A DNA stretch of 33,478 bases from Myxococcales bacterium. GTDB lineage: Bacteria > Myxococcota_A > Polyangia > Polyangiales > Houyiibacteriaceae. The translations under genes and the position numbers were made by a program. This document shows positions 23,319 through 26,006 of the stretch, piece by piece (positions within the stretch are counted from its first letter, which is position 1; every line of letters begins with the position of its first letter). The notes under the pieces were generated by a model. It saw only the letters and a list, made by a program, of their open reading frames with translations. It searched no databases and had not been told where the DNA came from. The stretch spans positions 1 through 33,478 of the forward strand of contig JAHBWH010000084.1 in the NCBI GenBank assembly GCA_019637115.1, given 5' to 3'.

Positions 23319-23808
23319 GCGCTCGCCCCTCGCGGCTTCTGCGCCGCCGCGCCGGCCTCTCCGTGTGAACTTCGTGACAGCCTCATCGACGGGGAGGACA
23401 CGCCCCGCCACACGGGCGCGCTCGCGCTCCCGGTGCCACGAGGCTCGGACGACGGCGCTTCACTCCCGGATTCGTGCGAGCGACCTGGGACGGCGAAGCG
23501 CGCCCGGTGCCTTCTGACGTTCGATGGACATCACGCCAAGAAATTGAAAGTAGGGTCGGAGGCGAGCGCCGTCGTGAGCTGCGCGCACGACAGCGCTCGC
23601 AGGGTTCGACGTGCGCGAGGTGGCGACGTCCCGTGTCGAGGGTGCGGCGGTCTTCCGGAAGGGGGATGGGGGTTGCCCGTTCCGCGCTGAGGCGCTTCGC
23701 TCGGCAGACGGGTGACAGGACGCGAGCACGTAAAAGGACGCGGACTTGGTCCCGGCTTCGGTTCCGTCTCCGACTCCGCAACGCTGCAGGTACGCGCGCG
23801 TGCCCGTC

Positions 23809-23844
23809 CGCGTCCACGTGCGCGTGCGCGTCCACGTGCGCGTG
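23809..23844. repeat. Two perfect tandem copies of an 18-mer
   Basis: CGCGTCCACGTGCGCGTG occurs at 23809-23826 and again at 23827-23844, with partial versions on both sides. Being a multiple of 6, it resembles a further-evolved hexamer array. Confidence 0.85.
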
Positions 23845-23934
23845 CGCGACCACAAATGTCCGCAGGCGTTTCGCGAGGGGTAGAGGCGCGAGAGCCCTCA
23901 CCATGGAGAAACGCGGCTTCGTCTCGCGACTCGG

Positions 23935-24034
<100 letters not shown>

Positions 24035-24080: not shown

Positions 24081-24247
24081 CTATCGCCGCGGATGAAGCA
24101 GCCGGTACGTCGTCGCGCCCACCCGGTCGACCAGCTCGAGCGCTTGCTCGACCTGCGCGCCGTCCGCGTAGCCCCAGCGCCCGATGATGTGCAGCGCCGT
24201 CCGCGTCTCGTACGCCGACCCGAGCGCCGTCTCGAGCCGCAGCCGCC
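24081..24247 (-). pseudogene. 3' end of a four-helix-bundle (TIGR02436-type, S23-like) protein gene
   Basis: Read on the minus strand, about 54 codons before the TAG at 24083-24081 give RRLRLETALGSAYETRTALH, IIGRWGYADGAQVEQALELV and DRVGATTYRLLHPRR. This matches the C-terminal half of the four-helix-bundle family often seen in myxobacteria and planctomycetes and in rRNA intervening sequences (GSAYE, WGY and DRV marks). A stop codon lies in frame five codons upstream of the match, so the N-terminal helices and the start are gone. The break is at about 24247-24262, exactly where the neighbouring + strand fragment begins. Confidence 0.7.
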
Positions 24248-24381
24248 GATTGTCCGACGGCTACGCCGACTGCCGCTCCTGCGCCGCCAACGGGTTCTGT
24301 GGCTGGTGCGACGGCGTCTGCGTCAACGACACCACGACTTCGTGCGAGGGCATCATCCGCAGTCCGTCCGCCTGCATGTGA
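24247..24381 (+). pseudogene. 3' end of a Cys-rich (PSI/plexin-repeat-like) protein gene
   Basis: The frame ending at TGA 24379-24381 reads DCRSCAANGFCGWCDGVCVN then TTTSCEGIIRSPSACM. The spacing CxxC, five residues, CGWC, three residues, C is that of a PSI (plexin) repeat, found at the ends of some secreted myxobacterial proteins. Sequence before about 24250 in this frame is antisense to the four-helix remnant, so the 5' part is missing. A tiny real gene from ATG 24184 is possible but would have no signal peptide, which is unlikely for a Cys-rich protein. Confidence 0.6.
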
Positions 24382-24446: not shown

Positions 24447-26006
24447 ATGGACGAAGGAACTGGCACGCGGATCACGTACGACGGCGCGGTCTACCGCGTT
24501 CAACCAGGCGAATCGGCGCTCGAGGCGCTGATTCGTGGCGGCGCGAACATCGCGTTCTCGTGCCGCAAGGGCTCTTGCCAGACGTGTCTGGTCAGGGCGG
24601 TCGAGGGCACGCCGCCGCCCGGCTCGCAGCGCGGGCTGCGCCAAGCGCTCGTCGACACGAAGCACTTCCTGCCCTGCGCCGCGCACCCCACCGAGCCCCT
24701 CGTCATCGGTCCCCCCGAGCGCTCGGTGCTCTTCTTGAACGCGCTCGTCGCCGAGAAGATCAGCCGCTCGCCGCGGGTGGTGCAGCTCTCGCTCGAGCCC
24801 GAGCTGACGCTCGACTGGCGGCCCGGGCAATACGTCAACCTGCGCGGCCCGAGCGGCCTCGTGCGCAGCTACTCGATCGCGAGCGTCGCGCACCACGACT
24901 ACTACGTGGAGCTCCACGTCGGCCTCGTTCCCGACGGGACGATGAGCCGGTGGATCCACGACGAGCTGAAGGCGGGTGATTACGTCGAGATCCAAGGACC
25001 CCTCGGCGACTGCACCTACCGCGACGAGCTGCGCGATCGCGAGCTGCTGATGCTGGCGACCGGCACGGGCATCGCGCCGATCATCGGCATCGTGCGCGAC
25101 GCGCTCGAGCGCGGGCATCGCGGCGCGATCCACGTGATCCACGCCGCGTCGGCGCCCGAGGAGGCGTACCTGCAGGGGGTCTTCGAGGGGCTCTGTCAGC
25201 GACACGAGAACCTGAGCTTCGAGCAGCTCGTCGGCGGCGGCGACGCGGTCGCGGCGTGCTTCGACGCGCGGCCGGACCTGAAGGGCACCGTGCTCTACCT
25301 CTGCGGCAACCCCGAGATGGTCTACGCGGCCCGCGTGCGGGCGGTCGAGAGCGGCGTCGACCGCCGCGAGGTCATCTCGGATCCCTTCGAGGACGCCTAC
25401 CCCTACTGGCCGCGCGACAAGCAGAAGCTCGAGGCGTGGCCGGTCGAGCCCGCGCTCTGGGAGGCGCTCGAGCGCGGCCCGAAGCTCCGCCGCATCCTCA
25501 CGGAGTTCTACGACCTCGCCTACGAGGATCCGCGGCTCGCGCCCTTCTTCCACAACGTCACGAAGGAGCGCGCGATCGCCAAGCAGTACGAGTTCCTCGC
25601 GGACGTCTTCGGCGGCGAGATCGAGTTCTTCGGGCTCAAGCCCTTCAACGCGCACCATTGGATGATCATCTCGGACGACCTCTTCGATCATCGCGAGGAG
25701 GTCTTCGAAGCCGTCGTGCGGCGCCACGGCCTCGAAGAGCAGCTGATCCGGCGCTGGATGGCCTTCCACGAGCTCTTCCGACGCGACCTCGTCAAGGGCG
25801 TCCAGCGCGGCATGATCATCAACGGCGTCGAGCACCTCCACGACGGCTACAGCGAGGAGGTCTTGCCCATGGACATGGTCTGCGACGGCTGCGGCGACGA
25901 GATGCTCGAGGGCAGCCGCGGCCGGATGCACCGGCGGACGGGCCAACTCTACTGCGGCCGATGCAGCGGCGCCCGCCTGAGCTCGTTCCCGTCCGCGATG
26001 ACCTGA
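24447..26006 (+). CDS. Fusion of 2Fe-2S ferredoxin, FAD/NAD reductase, truncated globin and zinc ribbon
   Basis: Encodes 519 residues. A plant-type ferredoxin domain covers about 5-90, with cluster ligands C39, C44, C47 and C77 (SCRKGSCQTC, FLPCAAHP). A ferredoxin-NADP reductase-like module covers about 95-320: FAD motif RSYS at 140-143, nucleotide motif GTGIAP at 206-211, C-terminal CGNPEMV from 286. A truncated-globin domain spans about 335-460 (LRRILTEFYDLAYEDPRLAP, then FFHN), with candidate haem-ligand histidines 403 and 404 in FNAHHWMIISDDLFDH. A four-Cys zinc-ribbon-like end follows (C479, C482, C503, C506). Electrons would pass from NAD(P)H through FAD and 2Fe-2S to haem, suggesting NO dioxygenation or O2/NO chemistry in the cytoplasm. 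The domain order is the reverse of flavohaemoglobin. The role is inferred. Confidence 0.9.
   Translation: MDEGTGTRITYDGAVYRVQPGESALEALIRGGANIAFSCRKGSCQTCLVRAVEGTPPPGSQRGLRQALVDTKHFLPCAAHPTEPLVIGPPERSVLFLNALVAEKISRSPRVVQLSLEPELTLDWRPGQYVNLRGPSGLVRSYSIASVAHHDYYVELHVGLVPDGTMSRWIHDELKAGDYVEIQGPLGDCTYRDELRDRELLMLATGTGIAPIIGIVRDALERGHRGAIHVIHAASAPEEAYLQGVFEGLCQRHENLSFEQLVGGGDAVAACFDARPDLKGTVLYLCGNPEMVYAARVRAVESGVDRREVISDPFEDAYPYWPRDKQKLEAWPVEPALWEALERGPKLRRILTEFYDLAYEDPRLAPFFHNVTKERAIAKQYEFLADVFGGEIEFFGLKPFNAHHWMIISDDLFDHREEVFEAVVRRHGLEEQLIRRWMAFHELFRRDLVKGVQRGMIINGVEHLHDGYSEEVLPMDMVCDGCGDEMLEGSRGRMHRRTGQLYCGRCSGARLSSFPSAMT

Follow-up and report, generated by a model that had tools for sequence, protein, structure and literature searches.

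The gene considered here lies in the window, i.e., the whole 33,478-nucleotide stretch of DNA that was analysed, and consists of a single open frame whose product would carry, in this order, a plant-type ferredoxin domain, an FAD-binding and an NAD(P)-binding domain, a truncated globin domain and an end with four cysteines, hereafter C4 (Table 1). The Pfam matches (Fer2, FAD_binding_6, NAD_binding_1 and Bac_globin) all exceed their curated cut-offs and their succession, with the four-cysteine end after it, bears out the order reductase-globin-C4 that had been proposed in an earlier note on this DNA, an order kept in six public-genome loci. The gene is flanked on one side by a PAS-GGDEF protein and a repeat-rich stretch, and on the opposite side by genes for an amidase and for a PAS histidine kinase. 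The gene had also been credited with its own promoter, a claim that found no backing: no sigma-70-like site was detected between 23300 and 26400, a result that neither proves nor excludes a promoter, and no terminator was seen around the gene. Upstream, the segments 23792-24025 and 24172-24381 hold six-base tandem repeats (GCGCGT; 17 copies of GTCTCG), and a small open frame rich in Cys, the end of which is at 24381, is possibly a gene remnant.

Table 1. Features of the fusion gene, with positions in the window and residue numbers of its product
Feature	Position	Strand	Basis or remark
Ferredoxin-FAD-NAD(P)-truncated globin-C4 fusion gene	24447..26006	+	519 aa plus stop; ATG 24447, stop 26004-26006
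2Fe-2S plant-type ferredoxin domain, aa 15-82	24489..24692	+	Pfam Fer2 2.3e-10
FAD-binding domain, aa 102-191	24750..25019	+	FAD_binding_6 5.9e-15
NAD(P)-binding domain, aa 202-295	25050..25331	+	NAD_binding_1 1.6e-8
Reductase-globin linker, aa 315-334	25389..25448	+	Frame unbroken in all fusions
Truncated (2/2, group I) globin domain, aa 335-450	25449..25796	+	Bac_globin, trHb1 PDB matches, fold search
Tyr355, predicted B10 distal residue	25509..25511	+	Alignments
Lys379-Gln380, predicted E10-E11 distal residues	25581..25586	+	Alignment with THB1
His403, predicted F8 proximal haem ligand, with its neighbour His404	25653..25658	+	Alignment with operon trHb1 globins
C4 zinc-ribbon-like end, CDGC-x20-CGRC, aa 479-506	25881..25964	+	Conserved Cys spacing

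The cluster cysteines of the ferredoxin domain (C39, C44, C47 and C77) and the RSYS motif of the FAD domain (residues 140-143) are all invariant in the alignment of the fusions. For residues 15-314 the best models and structures are ferredoxin reductases of the PRK05713/BenC/GcoB type, the GcoB P450 reductase (5ogx) being the best solved relative. This part resembles the PRK05713, BenC and MmoC models and lies under every curated NCBIfam cut-off; with PRK05713 (NF004317) it scores 153 bits vis-à-vis an equivalog cut-off of 338 and is not a PRK05713 equivalog, while the score with the NO-inducible flavohemoprotein model is 64 bits against a cut-off of 432. The self-contained electron chain that the earlier note had envisaged is plausible.

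That the frame might be a two-gene read-through artefact is ruled out by the existence of full-length homologues in public genomes and by the codon-position pattern. Indeed, in the comparison with a homologue of 73% identity the reading frame is unbroken across both linkers and the differences at codon positions 1, 2 and 3 amount to 98, 69 and 199, respectively (509 codons), the third-position excess being seen in the main domains as well as across the first linker. The conservation of the frame, together with the third-position variation, indicates that the fusion is one selected protein and not the product of a chance read-through.

The globin domain, its haem pocket and the C4 end

The Bac_globin match covers residues 337-423 (1.4e-7; 32.2 bits vs. 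a cut-off of 21) and for the last 194 residues the matches are group-I truncated haemoglobins, Chlamydomonas THB1 and Tetrahymena trHb among them. When a model of the globin part was submitted to Foldseek, group-I truncated globins ranked top with a probability of 1.00, a TM of 0.78 by target length and E-values of 3.6e-3 and above; VIA-align superimposed the same model on 1dly with a Z of 13.7 (rmsd 2.6, 114 aligned), the rows for other globin groups beginning at about Z 11.8. The structure models are shallow, with a pLDDT of 75 for the full model and of 74 for the globin part, and in the full model the segment around the proximal His falls under 50. A globin fold of group I, C-terminal and truncated as the earlier note had it, is supported both by the sequence and by the predicted structure. 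Assignment to group II, prompted by a Trp in the G helix, was discarded, group I ranking first by sequence and by fold.

In group-I globins the bound ligand is stabilised by Tyr B10 and by polar residues at E7/E11 (PMC7082302). In the fusion family the alignment places a nearly invariant Gln at E11, whereas E10 is mostly Lys but also His or Gln. In THB1, THB2 and THB4 the haem has Lys E10 as its sixth ligand (PMC7082302); given that E10 varies in the fusions, hexacoordination of their haem is only possible. On the proximal side, the NAHH of the fusion aligns to the NAHK of operon-encoded trHb1 globins, which puts H403 in the F8 column, and all the homologues that were aligned have a His at F8. 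H403 and H404 are both invariant within the fusion family, H404 being family-specific. Thus, of the pair His403/404 to which attention had originally been drawn, the former is by alignment the F8 residue and the predicted proximal ligand, whereas the latter is only a family-specific neighbour; a gapped pairwise alignment with THB1 would permit H404 in the ligand position, but the family alignment places H403 in the invariant column.

The cysteines at positions 479, 482, 503 and 506 form the motif CxxC-x20-CxxC and all four are invariant in the aligned fusions, so that the zinc-ribbon-like character attributed to this end is upheld. The spacing of exactly 20 residues between the CxxC pairs recurs in 30 of the 31 tabulated rows (which include a few genes counted twice under two locus ids), the odd one being L099, which lacks the motif. 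Curated families gave only weak matches below cut-off, namely the DksA/TraR type (0.003, with the copy of locus L053) and FYVE (0.03, with the window copy). The suggestion that the metal end senses the redox state was a guess, as a zinc site of structural function would account just as well for the conserved CxxC pairs. Because C4 is kept also in the forms devoid of reductase, this end most likely holds a structural metal, presumably zinc, and would serve folding, oligomerisation or docking.

Fused, standalone and two-gene forms

When 84,980 species genomes were scanned, six relatives emerged with identities of 43-73% and the same domain order, five in Myxococcota/Deltaproteobacteria MAGs and one in a MAG labelled Rhodobacterales. 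The search for proteins of like layout, which had been suggested at the outset, was rewarding insofar as about twenty genes share it, mostly in Myxococcota with the addition of two Pseudomonadota genomes, one of which is G643; the bacteria concerned are scattered forms from soil and sediment. In one of the six relatives, L040, on a contig shared with L113, a frameshift at ~1300-1340 splits the reductase part, reflecting either an assembly error or decay. The globin-C4 module occurs in 17 of the 183 genomes of the order (two weak matches without C4 end excluded) and in 18 of the 377 genomes of the phylum (bits above 250), the two genome sets overlapping; this patchy distribution suggests loss or horizontal transfer. 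Carriage of the fusion by phages or plasmids was searched for and none was found.

About ten genes encode globin-C4 alone, mostly in frames 208-293 aa long; the stretches read around them, some of which are short contigs, were found to contain no reductase gene homologous to the fused one. In the globin tree these standalone genes constitute one group (96/95) drawn nested among the fusions, the nesting having moderate supports, and they may be fusions that have lost their reductase. Long open frames in L111 and L115 had the appearance of larger fusions and were rejected, their added parts looking like non-coding read-through.

Outside the fusions, the nearest relatives found of the fused reductase are those of Methylocystis and other Pseudomonadota. 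Among plasmids, the reductase half has its best match in two from Methylocystis, where the matching gene begins 4-5 bases after an annotated group 1 truncated hemoglobin gene. Inspection of the neighbours of 50 Pseudomonadota reductase loci revealed that two are themselves fusions (L156 and L158) and that one or two trHb1 genes adjoin the reductase in 11; trHb1 genes in tandem pairs, each pair with a single ferredoxin reductase after it, are present at L147, L150, L152, L153, L155, L162 and L175. In Legionella pneumophila NsrR has a single target, the pair glbN-lpg2536, which consists of a cyanoglobin and a hypothetical ferredoxin reductase and has been proposed by Rodionov et al. to function in NO oxidation (PMC1274295), the link being repeated by Gardner (PMC3820574). 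The likeness to the Legionella pair is drawn from the published description of glbN-lpg2536. The fusion shares with the Legionella and Methylocystis pairs the same two predicted activities and a group I globin, but differs from them in that it is a single chain with the reductase first, has a globin of another clade and an added C4 end.

The tree of the reductases gathers all the fused ones in a single group (91/91), beside an operon-reductase group that also holds PRK05713. In the globin tree, on the other hand, the fused and standalone globin-C4 sequences form a group of their own (98/97) outside the operon-trHb1 clade and nearer another group of single-domain truncated globins (94/85). A globin outside the operon clade joined to a related reductase argues that the fusion is analogous to the trHb1-reductase operon without simply being that operon welded together; since the fused globin falls outside the clade, functional kinship with the trHb1 operons would carry less weight in the case of the globin than in that of the reductase. 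The fusion is a one-chain variant of the known trHb1/reductase two-gene pair, and its architecture is apparently undescribed, no earlier description having been found in the open-access literature.

In the 2006 globin census the only chimeric globins were flavohaemoglobins and globin-coupled sensors (PMC1457004). The raphidophyte nitrate reductase and globin-NOS are later chimeras with different frameworks. Also in the flavohaemoglobin Hmp, a NO dioxygenase, the globin haem receives its electrons from a tethered FAD/NAD(P) reductase that belongs to the FNR superfamily, but the globin of Hmp is of the 3/3 type and stands at the N-terminus, before the FAD/NAD domains, and there is neither a 2Fe-2S domain nor a C4 end. 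By definition (globin type, order, 2Fe-2S) the fusion is no flavohaemoglobin, although it may work like one. In raphidophyte NR2-2/2HbN a truncated globin is likewise chained to an FNR-type reductase, but the framework is that of the eukaryotic nitrate reductase, the domain order differs and the enzyme is not known to have a 2Fe-2S ferredoxin domain. A NO-metabolising role has been reported for this enzyme (PMC3820574). Reductases of the PRK05713/BenC/GcoB type have the Fer2-FAD-NAD order seen here, but no globin occurs in those families. In CYP116B proteins a P450 stands in place of the globin and the haem domain comes first. These self-sufficient P450s unite a haem enzyme, an FNR-type reductase and a 2Fe-2S ferredoxin in one chain (PMC7260179). 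Finally, cyanobacterial SyNOS has, as here, a globin within the chain of a redox enzyme, which is however a NO synthase and not a ferredoxin reductase; its globin is thought to turn NO into nitrate (PMC7554344).

Proposed nitric oxide dioxygenation and the alternatives

Reductases of this type pass electrons from NAD(P)H to FAD and then to 2Fe-2S, and globins dioxygenate NO whenever their haem is re-reduced. We regard the fusion, with moderate confidence, as an NAD(P)H-driven NO dioxygenase, that is a one-chain, self-reducing truncated haemoglobin. NAD(P)H would hand a hydride to the FAD of the ferredoxin-reductase part, whence single electrons would travel by way of the 2Fe-2S cluster to the haem that His403 holds in the globin; the ferrous haem would bind O2, held by Tyr355 and Gln380, and would convert NO to nitrate, after which the ferric haem would be re-reduced inside the same chain. 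The overall scheme, for which we infer the cofactor loading, the direction of electron flow and NO as the substrate, would be that of a reversed flavohaemoglobin-like NO dioxygenase with an extra iron-sulphur step.

Both the residues of the haem pocket and the presence of reductase kin beside truncated globins are consistent with the NO- or O2-handling role predicted in the earlier note. Haemoglobins are NO dioxygenases in vitro whose activity in vivo is limited by reduction (PMC2323109), and NO dioxygenation is favoured here because a tethered reductase would lift this limitation. Furthermore, the reductases found beside trHb1 genes and the NsrR-controlled Legionella pair suggest that the fusion is the one-chain version of a known pair and most likely a NO dioxygenase. 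Counting against this reading, besides the separate clade of the fused globin and the shallow models, are the globin-C4 genes without a nearby reductase; moreover, neither the surroundings of the gene in the window nor such conserved neighbours as were inspected included a recognisable NO-related gene. Few truncated haemoglobins have a known electron donor. For judging their NO role, what is said to be wanting is the cognate reductases (PMC2323109). With the donor covalently attached, the NO question becomes addressable with one purified protein, and from the fusion taken together with the two-gene operons this type of reductase emerges as a natural partner of group-I truncated globins.

A second reading, which we entertain tentatively and hold to be doubtful, is that the fusion represents the haem-redox component of an undescribed signalling cassette that reports or controls the O2, NO or redox state: the reductase would set the state of the globin and the C4 end would relay it to an ABC-phosphatase, an orphan protein and an Arf-like GTPase. 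The orphan protein has 134 aa (consensus MSLD...VPECVA.GYVDMSTGMLLGVKTVDSHP...) and its lack of a Pfam match or of a credible PDB match does not help this reading. What speaks for it is primarily the genomic association, the orphan gene being located directly upstream of the globin gene, with the same orientation, at L037, L107, L108 and L118, all four of them fusion loci, and at L103, a standalone locus; in most of the loci read it also follows, and adjoins, an ABC-ATPase/dual-specificity-phosphatase fusion, often with an Arf-like GTPase near. In most loci, however, the cassette and the globin gene are non-adjacent, and in the source genome the cassette lies on a separate contig (C404).

The orphan protein also co-occurs with the module in Myxococcota: within the order it is present in 14 of the 17 genomes having globin-C4 vs. 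25 of 183 overall, and within the phylum in 15 of 18 vs. 28 of 377, the hypergeometric p values (8e-12 and 1e-16, respectively) being uncorrected for kinship, which the counts ignore. Taking the union of the two sets, it is found in 23 of the 28 Myxococcota genomes with the module. A copy 67% identical is present in the fusion-bearing Pseudomonadota genome G643, whereas in G489, which also has the fusion, the orphan protein was not detected, and about 20 genomes carry it without globin-C4. The association of globin and cassette may reflect a globin-using signalling or redox-regulated system or else shared ecology, and it constitutes an entry to an uncharacterised Myxococcota system.

It is unlikely, in our opinion, that the fusion is a haem enzyme whose substrate is not NO (an oxygenase, a peroxidase-like or a nitrite-reducing enzyme) and using its BenC/GcoB-type reductase as oxygenases do: although the reductase half is similar to the P450/dioxygenase reductases GcoB and BenC, and the group-I globins THB11 and THB1 reduce nitrite in vitro (PMC7082302), the nearest reductase relatives emerging from plasmid and genome searches often adjoin truncated globins. 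Hardly credible is an incidental reduction of the haem, with the ferredoxin reductase serving another acceptor and the globin acting as an O2/NO reservoir or regulator, a scheme that would suit the globin-C4 genes without nearby reductase but not the conservation of the single chain in about twenty genes nor the operon linkage of the homologous parts elsewhere.

Cassettes and distant relatives of the orphan protein

In the source genome the cassette comprises the ABC-phosphatase, the orphan and the Arf-like GTPase genes and spans about 7.0-9.6 kb of G000:C404 (L191 6998-9568, minus strand). Two further truncated globins are encoded in this genome (G000:C45:3356-3712 and G000:C404:24423-24755), the second on the same contig as the cassette and about 16 kb off. 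Cassettes of this type recur in Myxococcota, sometimes with a second orphan paralogue in tandem.

Three identifications were tried and abandoned. The conserved upstream neighbour is not NsrR, as the 134-aa gene matches no DNA-binding family; a Roadblock/LC7 fold, which the orphan protein seems to have when judged by eye, received no support from Pfam, PDB profile search or hhalign; and a known defence system was dismissed, since in PADLOC the ABC part matched nothing but ATPase-type models and the fusion had no match at all.

Distant relatives of the orphan protein adjoin small roadblock-like open frames at L188 and L189 (Pseudomonadota G490 and G701), with a Robl_LC7 match in L188, hinting at a roadblock-type array. 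Another distant relative, in Pseudomonadota G719, is convergent with a 297-aa frame (L190 1956-2846, minus strand) in which a 3/3 globin (PF00042) is followed by a truncated globin (PF01152), a further truncated-globin-like frame being located nearby.
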